A DNA stretch of 33,001 bases from Anaerolineales bacterium (lineage in GTDB: Bacteria > Chloroflexota > Anaerolineae > Promineifilales > Promineifilaceae): assembly GCA_011524645.1 (NCBI GenBank), contig WTJY01000046.1, positions 1-33,001 of the forward strand. Direction: 5' to 3'. Below, piece by piece: positions 24,401 through 29,727 of the stretch (positions are counted from its first letter, which is position 1; each line of letters starts with the position of its first letter). The notes beneath the pieces were generated by a model. That model made no database searches, had not been told where the DNA came from, and was given only the letters and a program-made list of their open reading frames with translations. A program made the position numbers and the translations under genes.

Positions 24401-24757
24401 ATGACGAACATCTTGATTATTGACGATTCTCCACAAATGGGACATATGTTAACAGAGTTGGTGCGCTTGTTGGGGTATAAATCTCAGTTTGCGCAGGGAG
24501 GGGTGGCCGGTGTTGCTGCGGTTCAGGAGCAAATACCGGATTTGGTTTTGCTCGATATTATGATGCCCGAGCTAAATGGCTGGCAGGTACAGGAGCGGGT
24601 GCGGTGCTTTTCGTCTGTTCCGATTATTTTCGTCTCAACTGATAATTCGGCCGTTAGCCGGATACAGGCTGCACAAGTGGGATGCCGTTTATTGCCCAAA
24701 AATGTGACACCGGCCGTGCTAAAAAAGAACATTGAAGAACATCTACGCGTTTCGTAG
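24401..24757 (+). CDS. Orphan single-domain response regulator
   Basis: Receiver-only protein of 118 residues: D8/D9 (LIIDDSP), phospho-acceptor D52 (LLDIMMPELNG), switch T80 in VSTDN and K100 (LLPKN). The usual KPF reads PKN, a small departure. No kinase gene is adjacent. Start ATG 24401 is chosen over GTG 24398 directly before it; the difference is one residue. Relative to the other CheY-like protein here it diverges clearly, so it is not a recent copy. Confidence 0.9.
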   Translation: MTNILIIDDSPQMGHMLTELVRLLGYKSQFAQGGVAGVAAVQEQIPDLVLLDIMMPELNGWQVQERVRCFSSVPIIFVSTDNSAVSRIQAAQVGCRLLPKNVTPAVLKKNIEEHLRVS

Positions 24758-24781
24758 ACTTGTATTACAGGTTTGTTCGCG

Positions 24782-24997
24782 TTAACTGCTTACTGTGGTA
24801 AACGGTTTAGGTAAGGGGATCAGGTTGTTGACAACCGCTAAACCCAACAAAATGATCCCTAGCGCGATAATGCTGTTTGTGGTGATTTGTTCACCCAAGA
24901 AGACTGCGCCCCAGCTCTCACCATTGATCGGGATTAAATCGGTCACAAATGTGGCGTAAGTTGGGCCAGCAAGTGGGTTGAGGGGATAAAAACAGAG
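24782..24997 (-). pseudogene. EamA/DMT transporter remnant (C-terminal fragment)
   Basis: The reading frame encodes only the last pair of helices of an EamA (drug/metabolite) transporter: TYATFVTDLIPINGESWGAV, then FLGEQITTNSIIALGIILLG, matching the family's LIPv...LGE...G..lIl.G end. A complete protein would need about 220 more residues upstream, and none are present. The frame remains open to 25093, but that part runs into an imperfect hairpin and does not look like transporter. I read this as a truncated remnant. Confidence 0.7.
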
Positions 24998-25043
24998 GAA
25001 GGTTCCTACATTCGGCAGTATCAGGAATTTTTGTTTGTATGGC

Positions 25044-25104
25044 AGAAGCTCAACACTGTCTCTTAAGACGTGAACAGATGTCACGTGAGACAAATTGAGC
25101 TTCT
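25044..25104. repeat. Long imperfect hairpin next to the EamA remnant
   Basis: AGAAGCTCAA (25044-25053) pairs with TTGAGCTTCT (25095-25104), TGTCTC (25057-25062) with GAGACA (25087-25092), and CGTGA (25069-25073) with TCACG (25081-25085). The result is a three-step stem of about 60 bases. It lies 34 bases after the stop of the HTH-repeat protein gene (minus strand), so it may be its terminator, or the scar of the event that truncated the transporter. Confidence 0.6.
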
Positions 25105-25137
25105 TTTGTTGTGTGGATTATTTGTGTGATCCGCTAT

Positions 25138-26220
25138 TTATTGGTCCGAGATTGAAATTTCTTCTTCTGGTGGCTCTTCACGGCCGGTGCGTTGCTTTAG
25201 GTCGCTCCATTCCTCTTTGAGATTGTGATCAACAACTGACCAAATATCATTCCATGTCGCCGCGTTTAGAAAATCTTTAGGGGCTGATGTTTCTAGCTTT
25301 TGAGTCACACCGGTAACTAGCTTGGCTCCCGGTAGGGTGGAAAGGAACTCTTGGGCTTGTTTGGTTGCCGGTAGAGAATCGACGAACTCTTTGCCTTGCT
25401 TAATGCCGGGAAGTGATTCGATTTTTTCGCGGGTCTCGCCGATAGTAGGGAGCTTGTCGAACGCTTCTTTGCTTTGTTTGACGCCGGGGATTTTGTCGGC
25501 CGTTTCATTGACTGAATTGGCTAGGTTTTCGGCCGTTTGGCTAACAGATGTTGAGAGGTTTCCGGCCGTTTCACCTACTTTCCCCGCTAGGCTTTCCGCT
25601 TCTTTTTGTAAAGCGTAGCTGATGATGTCCCAGATGTCTCGCCAGATTTCAGTATTGCGAAAATCATCGGCCGTGGCGGTAACGAGCCGTGTTTCAATAT
25701 CTTTGATGACTTCTGGCTTGAGTTTGTCGATGTTGGCCCGTAAAGACGCCAAGAGCTCTTCGGGTGAGAAGGTTGGCGGGGTGAAGTTGGGGAACCGTTG
25801 GCGCAAATCTTCCGCTAATTTGCTCAATTGGGCCAAAATCGATTCGATTCGATTTGATGGATTGGCGCTCGGTTCTTCTGTCGATTCTTCTGTCTGCGCC
25901 TCATCTCTTTTGGCTTCGGCGGTGGCCTGTGCATTGGCAAATTCAGCTTTGGCTGTATCTAGCTTCGCTTTCACTTCTTGCGTTTGGGCGGCGATCGCTT
26001 CTTTTATTTCTGTTGCTTTGGTGACGGCCGATTCGGCCGTGTCTGTGGCGGTGGTTGCGATGTCGCCAATTTGCCGTTTCCAGCGTGTTAAGCTGCCCTT
26101 GGCTAACCCTAGATCTTTTTCAACTTGGGCCATTGATTTGTTGCTGACCTCTTTTTCTTGCATGTAGGTGGCAAGTGCTTCTTTTTTGAACTCAAGTGAG
26201 TAAGTTTTTCTTTTGCTCAT
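25138..26220 (-). CDS. Transposase-type HTH fused to 11- and 13-residue repeats
   Basis: This 360-residue protein is not a transposase. Residues 5-50 match the HTH of IS3/IS-type OrfA (TYSLEFKKEALATY... GLAKGSLTRWKRQI). After it come an Ala/Lys/Glu-rich helix (55-112) and an acidic Ser/Pro linker. A helical segment follows with the motif DFRN...W193xDIW (186-197). Three 11-residue repeats (VGETAGNLSTS, VSQTAENLANS, VNETADKIPGV; 215-247) lead into five exact 13-residue repeats (245-309), each starting with Pro and ending with Leu (for example PGIKQGKEFVDSL). A second W motif follows, DFLN...W323xDIW (316-327), and an acidic tail ends the protein. There is no signal or membrane segment. LEA- or apolipoprotein-like amphipathic helices and DNA binding are both plausible. 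No family is recognised. Confidence 0.85.
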   Translation of the reverse strand: MSKRKTYSLEFKKEALATYMQEKEVSNKSMAQVEKDLGLAKGSLTRWKRQIGDIATTATDTAESAVTKATEIKEAIAAQTQEVKAKLDTAKAEFANAQATAEAKRDEAQTEESTEEPSANPSNRIESILAQLSKLAEDLRQRFPNFTPPTFSPEELLASLRANIDKLKPEVIKDIETRLVTATADDFRNTEIWRDIWDIISYALQKEAESLAGKVGETAGNLSTSVSQTAENLANSVNETADKIPGVKQSKEAFDKLPTIGETREKIESLPGIKQGKEFVDSLPATKQAQEFLSTLPGAKLVTGVTQKLETSAPKDFLNAATWNDIWSVVDHNLKEEWSDLKQRTGREEPPEEEISISDQ

Positions 26221-26349
26221 ACGAATCTTTTTGGGAGGGTTTAAATTTATGATTGATATTAATAAGGAGGTGTAGACTGACTTACTATGGCGGAAAACGG
26301 GTGTAGGCTCGTTTTCTTATTATGATCTGTTTGCTGAGTTTGCTGTAGT

Positions 26350-27042
26350 CTAGGCCCAAGGGATAAGGTACATTGCCGCGACGAAGTGGCAGACGGTGCC
26401 ACCCAAGCAAAAAACATGCCAAACTGCATGACTGTATCGAACCCCATCTAAGGCGTAGAAGATGACACCGGCCGTGTATGTGATGCCACCGGCAACAAGC
26501 CAGCCGAAGCTGGAACTGGGCAAATTGGCTAGAATCTCTTGCCAACCGAATACGATCAACCAGCCCATTGCGACATACGCAAGGGTTGAGAAGATTTGGA
26601 AGCGATTGATAAAATAGATTTTGAAAAAGATGCCGAAAATAGCGATGCTCCATACCGCCACGAGCATGCTCCAGCCGAGTGGGCTTTGTAAGCCGACGAC
26701 CAGAAATGGGGTATATGTTCCGGCTATGAGTAGGTAAATTGCGGCATGGTCCAGAACTTGGAATACCTTTTTCGCTTTGGGAGATTGCAGGCTGTGATAC
26801 AGAGTCGATGCAAGATATAGCAAAAACATGGTTGTCCCATAGATGCTAAATGAGACGATATGAGTGACATCTCCCATCATGGCGGCGAAAACAATCAGTA
26901 GGGTTAATCCGGAAATGCTAAAAGCGACACCGATACCATGTGTGATCCCATTGGCGATTTCTTCACCAATCGAATAAATGGCATATGGGGTGGTTTTAGA
27001 TTCAGGACGAGAAAACAGGCTTTGATAGTTAAACTTATTCAT
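26350..27042 (-). CDS. trhA: Hemolysin III / PAQR family membrane protein
   Basis: Seven-helix inner-membrane protein of 230 residues, homologous to HlyIII/TrhA and to adiponectin receptors. Family motifs: SIGEEIANGITHG (24-36, with E27/E28 and N31), STLYHSL (79-85, H83), LDHAAIYLLIAGTYTPF (97-113), and SHAVWHVF (204-211; H205 and H209), with H83, D98, H205 and H209 as the likely zinc ligands. Such proteins are zinc-dependent hydrolase-like membrane proteins; proposed roles in bacteria include membrane energetics, and a hemolysin role is rarely shown. A 129-base gap without features separates it from the HTH-repeat gene. Confidence 0.93.
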   Translation of the reverse strand: MNKFNYQSLFSRPESKTTPYAIYSIGEEIANGITHGIGVAFSISGLTLLIVFAAMMGDVTHIVSFSIYGTTMFLLYLASTLYHSLQSPKAKKVFQVLDHAAIYLLIAGTYTPFLVVGLQSPLGWSMLVAVWSIAIFGIFFKIYFINRFQIFSTLAYVAMGWLIVFGWQEILANLPSSSFGWLVAGGITYTAGVIFYALDGVRYSHAVWHVFCLGGTVCHFVAAMYLIPWA

Positions 27043-27259
27043 TTATTTCACTTTGCCGAAATTGAATCATTGTCATCCAATTTCATTAGATCTTGCCTTA
27101 TTGTAGAATGACACGGATTTTCCCCAAAATCCTATAGCCGTGTAGGTTGAATAGTATCATTTTCCGAAGTGATTACAAGCGATGTTAATTGATTGAACAT
27201 GTTATAATTGATGGGGAGCTTGTCATTTTTAATAACTATCATTAAGTGTGTGAAATTCT

Positions 27260-28924
27260 ATGATCGGATTTGGCGATTTGAGTCCTTTAGAGCAAAAAGT
27301 GTTGGCTACAATCGATATGAATGCGTTGATTGAAGCGATTAAAACGGTCGTTGCTGTGCCTAGCCTTGATGGAAGTGAGGATGAAAGCCGGGTACAGGAA
27401 GTGATGGCTGATTTGATGCGTCAGTTGGGGTTTGATGTCGATATGTGGGAGATCGATTTTGCTGAATTGAGCCAGCACCCCGGATATAGTGTAGAAGTTG
27501 ATCGGGCGCGCGGTGTAGGAGTTGTGGGACGTTATGGACGGGCTACGGCCGATGGCAAATCCCTTGTGCTAAACGGACATACTGATGTGGTTCCGGCTGG
27601 TGAGTTAGAGAATTGGCAATACCCGCCGTGGGAAGCGACCGTCAACGAAGATGAAGGGCGGATTTATGGGCGGGGTGTTCTGGACATGAAAGGGGCTCTG
27701 CTTTGTGGTGTGTTTGCGGTCAAAGCGATTATGGATGCCGGTGTTGAGTTGGCTGGTCACGTTGCGGTCCAATCGGTTATTGGTGAGGAAGACGGTGGCG
27801 TCGGCACATTAGCCTCGATTATGCGTGGGCATGTGGCTGATGCGGCCGTGGTGATGGAGCCGACCGAGTTGATGATTTCGCCCGCTCAAGCTGGGGCGCA
27901 TAACTTTCGTGTTTCGATTCCCGGTATGGCGGCTCATGGTGCTTTGCGAGATGAAGGTGTTGACCCGTTAGAAAAATTCTTGCTGATTTATCAAGCGATC
28001 CTGATGTTTGAAAAAGTACGTAACCTGAATGTGTCACATCCGATGTTTAAGGATTATGCATTGCCTTACCCGATATGTGTGGGGACGATTCAAGGGGGTG
28101 TTTGGGCATCGACCGTGATGGAGACATTGACGTTTGAGGGACGGTTAGGGATTCAAGTCGATGAAGATCCGCAAGACGCGCGCCGAGCTTTTGAAAAATT
28201 GCTGTTAGACACCGCCGCTGCCGACCCGTGGTTGAGCCAGCACCCGCCGATACTAGAATGGTGGGGTGGGACGTTTGATCCGGCGAGCATTGCGGCTGAC
28301 CACCCGATTGTGACCACGGTGAGCGAATCGTACACTGTGATTACGGGGCAAGAGCCGTTGTTGCGCGGTATGCCATATGGGGCGGATATGCGTTTGTTAA
28401 TCAATTATGGTGAGATACCGACCGTTATGTTTGGTCCTGGCGATGTGCGGAAAGCCCATCAGCCGGATGAATTTGTGCCGATTGCGGAATTAGAAACGGC
28501 CGTGCGGACTTTGGCTCTCACTGTTCTGCGATTTTGTGGTGTGTATGAGGAAGCAAGCGAAGTAAATGAGGAGCTTGCGCCAAGCCCTGAGCAGGATGAG
28601 GTGGATGTAATGGCTGATTTTGATGATCTTGCTCATATGCTTGTGATCGATACGGCCGAGCCTGTGGAATCCGTAGTTGATATGGCTGAAGCGACCGGCA
28701 TCGCTCAAGAGGATCCACTTGATGATGTACAAGATGATGCGGCCGTATCTGACGCGGCCGAGGTGGTTGCGCCGGTGATCGGACAAGATGAAATGCCGTT
28801 TGATGATAGCTCTGTTGAGCCGGAAGTGACAGATGAGCGAGCGGAAATTGGACTGATTGTTGAGCCTGTAGATTTGCCTGAAACGGCGAGTGAGGTTGAT
28901 GAGGTGGAAAACAATGGAGAATAA
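27260..28924 (+). CDS. M20 family metallopeptidase with long acidic tail
   Basis: Residues 1-430 are an ArgE/DapE/acetylornithine deacetylase-like M20 enzyme. Metal ligands and catalytic residues: H107 and D109 (NGHTDVVPAG), D142 (GRGVLDMKGAL), E176/E177 (GEEDGG) and H400 (RKAHQPDEF), with a dimerisation domain between. The exact substrate (N-acyl amino acid or small peptide) cannot be read. Residues 430-554 are a low-complexity tail rich in Asp, Glu, Ala and Val with few basic residues. M20 enzymes of this type normally stop near 420-430, so the tail is extra. Its final codons overlap the methyltransferase start (ATG at 28914), which suggests coupled translation. Confidence 0.92.
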   Translation: MIGFGDLSPLEQKVLATIDMNALIEAIKTVVAVPSLDGSEDESRVQEVMADLMRQLGFDVDMWEIDFAELSQHPGYSVEVDRARGVGVVGRYGRATADGKSLVLNGHTDVVPAGELENWQYPPWEATVNEDEGRIYGRGVLDMKGALLCGVFAVKAIMDAGVELAGHVAVQSVIGEEDGGVGTLASIMRGHVADAAVVMEPTELMISPAQAGAHNFRVSIPGMAAHGALRDEGVDPLEKFLLIYQAILMFEKVRNLNVSHPMFKDYALPYPICVGTIQGGVWASTVMETLTFEGRLGIQVDEDPQDARRAFEKLLLDTAAADPWLSQHPPILEWWGGTFDPASIAADHPIVTTVSESYTVITGQEPLLRGMPYGADMRLLINYGEIPTVMFGPGDVRKAHQPDEFVPIAELETAVRTLALTVLRFCGVYEEASEVNEELAPSPEQDEVDVMADFDDLAHMLVIDTAEPVESVVDMAEATGIAQEDPLDDVQDDAAVSDAAEVVAPVIGQDEMPFDDSSVEPEVTDERAEIGLIVEPVDLPETASEVDEVENNGE

Positions 28925-29649: not shown

Positions 29650-29727
29650 GCTGACTGAATAGAAGACGCGTGTTCTTCTATTCAGTTAGCCCGTTCAGTT
29701 AGCCCGTTCAGTTAGCCCGCTTTTTTT
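29650..29727 (+). terminator. Terminator between convergent genes
   Basis: A 16-bp stem with one G-U pair, extendable by one G-C (CTGACTGAATAGAAGA at 29651-29666 with its partner at 29674-29689, 7-base loop), is followed by repeats and by a run of seven T after GCCCGC (29721-29727). It ends the M20/methyltransferase transcript. The convergent hydrolase gene stops at 29726. Confidence 0.75.
29681..29719. repeat. Three tandem 13-bp repeats
   Basis: TTCAGTTAGCCCG occurs three times head to tail (29681-29693, 29694-29706, 29707-29719). The first copy is also the right arm of the adjacent hairpin, so the array looks like local duplication of part of the terminator stem. Confidence 0.85.

Follow-up and report, generated by a model that had tools for sequence, protein, structure and literature searches.

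What might a protein do that opens with the DNA-binding domain of a transposase and continues as a repetitive, amphipathic helical body? This question is raised by an ORF in the window, as we call the whole stretch of 33,001 nucleotides from an Anaerolineales bacterium that was analyzed here. The ORF (25138–26220, minus strand) is intact and encodes 360 amino acids, with an ATG at 26220 and a stop codon ending at 25138. Its layout and its synteny anchor are collected in Table 1. Elsewhere in the window, a 13-bp unit (TTCAGTTAGCCCG) is present three times in identical form between two genes (29681–29719). The window as a whole (33 kb, 1–33001) is rich in the palindrome CGGCCG, with 92 occurrences against 7.6 expected and a maximum of 14 in 100 shuffles. 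This palindrome is often found within ACGGCCGT, a hyper-abundant HIP1-like octamer that is dense in loci of the window's family (e.g., L066 and L137) and sparse in other families.

Table 1. Features of the swappable-head ORF and its synteny anchor in the window.
Feature	Coordinates	Strand	Description or evidence
Whole ORF, 360 aa	25138..26220	-	Swappable head, helical linker and two-copy body; profile A2, E = 7.9e-56
Residues 1–52, IS3 OrfA-type HTH head	26065..26220	-	PF01527, PDB 2jn6, 51% identity to L021 OrfA
Residues 53–111, Ala/Glu/Lys amphipathic helix, without OrfA leucine zipper	25888..26064	-	Moment z = 2.3
Residues 121–143, amphipathic helix opening the conserved family region	25792..25860	-	Alignment A1; moment z = 3.4; helix in model
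Residues 144–215, body copy 1 (P-x-FSP ... DDFRNTEIWRDIWDIISYALQKEAESL)	25576..25791	-	Alignment, profile A2, self-BLASTP
Residues 212–244, 11-residue amphipathic repeats	25489..25587	-	Moment and DNA repeat spacing
Residues 245–309, five tandem 13-residue P-x11-L units	25294..25488	-	Shuffle test, alignment A1
Residues 310–345, body copy 2 (PKDFLNAATWNDIWSVVDHNLKEEWSDLKQRT)	25186..25293	-	Alignment, self-BLASTP
HlyIII gene directly upstream of the ORF, synteny anchor	26350..27042	-	PF03006, E = 5.8e-43

The first-pass annotation of this locus had recognized an IS-type OrfA helix-turn-helix (HTH) at the N-terminus, and the profile, structural and pairwise comparisons agree. HTH_Tnp_1 (PF01527) matches residues 1–69 in a Pfam scan of the protein (E = 5.2e-5; 23.8 bits with a cut-off of 24.1) and scores 26.9 bits, above the cut-off, in the genome search, while PDB entry 2jn6 (Cgl2762) matches residues 4–75 (E = 1.9e-4). 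The head shares 51% identity over 51 residues with OrfA of an IS3-type element of a relative (L021) in which OrfB is still present, and its recognition-helix region SLTRWKRQI still matches OrfA. The rest of the element is missing, its DDE region and ends as had also been noted: the leucine zipper of the L021 OrfA (RENEILRQERDILKKA) is absent from residues 53–111, the ORF list of the window contains no transposase ORF (OrfB/DDE), and no inverted-repeat pair was found flanking the ORF or its HTH. The sole long inverted-repeat pair (25672/26647, 88% over 16 nt) has one arm within the body. The composition of the head gives no foreign signal (GC of 0.42 compared to a window mean of 0.47, sd 0.05, with typical GC3), and no plasmid source of the HTH was matched. 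A second HTH_Tnp_1 in the window genome (C152) is decayed by two stops and offers no clue to the donor.

The repeats behind the head are more irregular than initially described. The five P-x11-L units are real, the longest run in 20,000 shuffles of residues 190–345 being two, but they are exact in their period only and not in sequence. Among the 11-residue units at about 216–248, two are good and one is imperfect, with three DNA copies at a spacing of 33 nt; residues 212–243 are strongly amphipathic (moment z = 4.8). A related 13-residue-type linker is also present in the same-genus orthologues, and the 13-residue repeats are a linker seen in the window's genus. The real signature of the family, overlooked in the first-pass annotation, is an internal duplication, in which residues 148–216 match a stretch ending near residue 346 (BLASTP E = 2e-9) and which yields two copies of a DF-N--xW-DIW segment; the body, not the HTH, defines the family. 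Predicted structures are of low confidence (pTM 0.32 and 0.41), every Foldseek match of the models in the PDB has E > 1, and the head was modeled as one long helix since it had no aligned homologues, making the models uninformative on the HTH.

Whereas the first-pass annotation saw a novel repeat protein, the window protein does not stand alone but is a member of a hitherto undescribed, class-wide family with a shared helical body and exchangeable heads. A search with the whole protein matched 31 of 59 relative genomes, mostly via the body and not via the HTH. Profile A2, built from 19 rows and applied at E ≤ 1e-4 to 396 genomes of the class, matches 72 of them, and these belong to nine or more families in the grouping used for the collection. 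Its match to the window protein spans profile positions 2–176 of 177 (E = 7.9e-56), the family motif being DF-N--TWKG-W in two copies; the window protein is one of its own 19 rows, and a separate single-sequence search matched relatives too. The relatives that carry a name in public genomes (Promineifilum, Ardenticatenaceae, Anaerolineae) all belong to the Chloroflexota. In the rest of the phylum the body was found in single copy only, in ORFs of 416–590 aa, and within the class the single-copy form is fused to a PlsC-type acyltransferase (PF01553). The leader of an acyltransferase of this kind is a plausible source of the two-copy body. Two other origins were considered and rejected: the body as a diverged phasin (no match to the Pfam phasin family PF05597; hhalign probability of 0.3% against local phasins) and a viral or phage origin (no match in IMG/VR or phage records).

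The survey of head diversity covered 79 family proteins, non-redundant and taken from the retrieved loci. A DUF5763-type Cys/His head is the commonest (42 proteins, three of them also with an acyltransferase), followed by a helix-hairpin-helix (HhH) head (10, and one more cut by a contig end), an IS630-type HTH (7), a SAP head (1) and the IS3 HTH of the window protein itself (1); the remaining proteins have no recognized head, and 10 of these carry an acyltransferase. Pfam supports these head types with E-values of 8e-8 (DUF5763), 3.5e-13 (HHH_5), 7.9e-10 (HTH_28) and 6.1e-11 (SAP), and the best NCBIfam match of the HhH head is the C-terminal part of the phasin PhaH (NF045508, E = 4.5e-8). Homologues of the body occur in the 72 genomes given above; the IS3 HTH head is seen in the window species only. 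The body tree (66 rows, IQ-TREE) requires a minimum of eight head changes. Some members in the window's family have a body without a recognized head, so DNA binding is not a trait shared by all members, and for the DUF5763-type Cys/His head it is an assumption on our part. One headless body paralogue (L083:2226-3218, minus strand) has a long amphipathic, repetitive N-terminus with a weak Apolipoprotein match, features that a droplet coat lacking a tether would be expected to show. Four body–acyltransferase fusions (L113, L119, L120 and L159) have a K/R-rich stretch in front (e.g., PAPRRGRRKK, PMPKRGRRKK) that looks AT-hook-like by eye; we rejected the AT-hook as a further head type since Pfam did not call it in a scan that covered L113, L119 and L159.

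The origin of the head in the window protein can be read from its closest relatives. In three genomes of the same genus (G003, G001 and G002; loci L061, L063 and L064), a Cys/His-headed orthologue lies directly downstream of HlyIII, oriented as in the window. The window protein nests inside the same-genus orthologues in the body tree (100/99) and groups with L062–L064 at 99/92, leaving L061 outside. Given this shared HlyIII synteny with Cys/His-headed siblings and the nested position within their clade, the IS3 HTH is an in-place replacement of a DUF5763-type Cys/His head, and one of the at least eight head changes. No remnant of the Cys/His module was found in any frame of 24501–27300 of the window (control L063, 61.9 bits). 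Considering that no element ends are seen and that the composition is not foreign, the event is either old or a clean recombination. A chimeric assembly is unlikely, since about 150 bp would have to be replaced in frame between two syntenic parts. The central observation of the first-pass annotation, a transposase HTH stripped of its remaining element and fused in frame to an amphipathic helical body, is retained, and the syntenic siblings reveal which head was replaced. It had also reasoned that an HTH lacking in all relatives would point to a local fusion artefact. The relatives do lack it, yet they have different heads in this position, and the fusion is no artefact.

The presence of the body strongly tracks that of WS/DGAT, the bacterial triacylglycerol/wax-ester synthase, and does not track PHA synthase at all. 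Of the 72 body-positive genomes 64 have WS/DGAT, compared with 34 of the 324 others (Fisher 2e-39); outside the window's family the counts are 41 of 48 and 29 of 317 (5e-28). Neither value takes phylogeny or genome incompleteness into account. PhaR is present in 62/72 vs. 44/324, whereas PHA synthase (PhaC_N) is present in 2 of the 72 body-positive genomes and 6 of the 324 others. PHA granules were rejected as the cargo of most members, since PhaC_N is present in only 8 of all 396 genomes and class III PhaC was matched in 4 of 59 relatives, none above the cut-off. In the window's family, genes adjoining the body gene include PhaR (PHB_acc_N, 4.4e-28), phasin (PF05597, 1.1e-19; also 2.4e-11), SCP2, a patatin lipase and CoxG. 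Of the 62 genomes having both PhaR and the body, 23 have the two within ~5.5 kb of each other by their match coordinates. In one genome (G086, locus L166), the single WS/DGAT-adjacent case, a patatin gene, WS/DGAT and a body–acyltransferase fusion are adjacent, the last two lying 45 bp apart on one strand. The window genome has both WS/DGAT and a phasin, and profile searches detected neither PhaC nor PhaR in it; in the window's own genus the body gene adjoins HlyIII, not granule genes. PhaR homologues, and phasins where searched, are common in genomes of the class without detectable PHA synthase (e.g., G003 and G022), which suggests that they serve other granules there.

Taken together, we propose that the window protein links neutral-lipid droplets to the nucleoid, as a tether whose DNA grip can be exchanged; to this reading we assign an even chance. 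The duplicated amphipathic body, with its aromatic W/Y/M helices and 11- and 13-residue repeats, would lie at the surface of neutral-lipid droplets in the cytoplasm, whose cargo may be triacylglycerol or wax ester made by WS/DGAT. The N-terminal head would grip chromosomal DNA, probably without strong sequence preference, and head and body together could spread the droplets along the nucleoid and into the daughter cells. In the lineage of the window, the ancestral DUF5763-type Cys/His head gave way in place to the IS3-type OrfA HTH; in other lineages of the family, HhH, IS630-type HTH or SAP forms the head. That unrelated DNA-binding folds have replaced one another repeatedly suggests selection for a generic DNA grip. 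Points that speak against the tether are the HlyIII neighborhood of the gene in the window's own genus, the missing PhaR match in the window genome, the headless members and a body that resembles the local phasins neither by profile nor any PDB fold. The initial guess of a nucleoid or membrane protein pointed in the right direction, but the genomic context argues for a more specific role at storage-lipid granules.

The two main rival readings assign other functions to the same parts. The protein might be a granule-sequestered transcription regulator, the body of which docks on the granule while the head reads specific operators and so reports the storage level, like PhaR or MLDSR. The PhaR-like neighbors, the precedent of MLDSR (PMC5504291) and the sequence specificity of HTH heads in other contexts are all in line with such a regulator, which we nonetheless consider unlikely: at least four unrelated DNA-binding folds and headless forms on one body better suit an unspecific grip, and PhaR itself is usually encoded as well. 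Somewhat less probable still is a body that anchors or activates the lipid-synthesis machinery (PlsC-type acyltransferase, WS/DGAT) at the membrane or droplet, with heads contacting proteins and not DNA. This would account for the body–acyltransferase fusions inside the class, the WS/DGAT adjacency in L166 and the single-copy bodies in 416–590 aa ORFs elsewhere in the phylum, but it fits poorly with heads that were repeatedly recruited from DNA-binding families.

The remaining two explanations concern the window protein more narrowly. Its HTH could be a functionless leftover of an IS that inserted and was then deleted, leaving only the body functional here, as its confinement to the window species and the existence of headless family members would allow. 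The intact frame, the SLTRWKRQI region that still matches OrfA and an in-frame junction where other members carry a DNA-binding head render this improbable. Least credible, and in our view very doubtful, is the initial reading, in which a DNA-binding protein domesticated from a transposase has a LEA-like body with a stress or nucleoid role. Beyond the 11-residue repeats it can draw on an Apolipoprotein match below the cut-off (20.4 bits vs. 90), and the Pfam search of the window protein listed no match to a LEA family; against it, the body family exists without the IS3 HTH and its context is lipid storage, so a stress role is not favored.

Granule tethers have so far been known singly (PhaM, PhaF, PhaH, MLDS). 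The wider claim, on which we are evenly divided, is that of a Chloroflexota droplet-tether family whose body has repeatedly swapped DUF5763-type Cys/His, HhH, SAP and two different transposase HTHs as heads, including an in-place replacement by a mobile-element domain. If true, a constant granule side combined with an exchanged DNA side would mean that selection demands only a DNA grip, and one body with several natural heads makes this idea testable by comparison. In addition, the locus documents how a bacterial gene exchanged one of its parts for a transposase HTH, the prior state being visible in the syntenic siblings, and for a class with few cultures the body provides a marker of neutral-lipid storage.

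Several known systems share individual elements with the window protein. IS3-family OrfA shares its HTH domain with the window protein (51% identity over 51 residues), whereas the window protein is devoid of the leucine zipper, OrfB/DDE and element ends. Perilipin coats droplets by means of an 11-residue amphipathic periodicity (PMC5889406), compared to which the 11-residue region of the window protein is short (about three units); no homology is claimed. Closer to the proposed function, the histone-like PhaM and PhaF and the HhH protein PhaH tether PHB granules to the nucleoid (PMC13052382, PMC3556143), in each case through unspecific DNA binding (PMC3556143, PMC13052382, PMC5658603), and MLDS binds lipid (triacylglycerol) droplets to DNA without sequence specificity (PMC5504291). 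PhaH of Caulobacter crescentus uses a helix-hairpin-helix grip as the HhH-headed members may do, the matched part being the PhaH HhH region; there, however, the HhH is C-terminal to a phasin body, whereas it is N-terminal to another body in the HhH-headed members. PhaM of Ralstonia eutropha and PhaF of Pseudomonas putida follow the plan proposed for the window family, an amphipathic granule part and an unspecific DNA part in one protein. They consist of a phasin domain with a C-terminal histone-like tail and act on PHA granules, whereas the window family has an unrelated body, folded N-terminal heads and genomes mostly without PHA synthase. MLDS of Rhodococcus jostii differs by its C-terminal lysine-rich PAKKA motifs and, like the proposed tether, links triacylglycerol droplets to DNA (PMC5504291).
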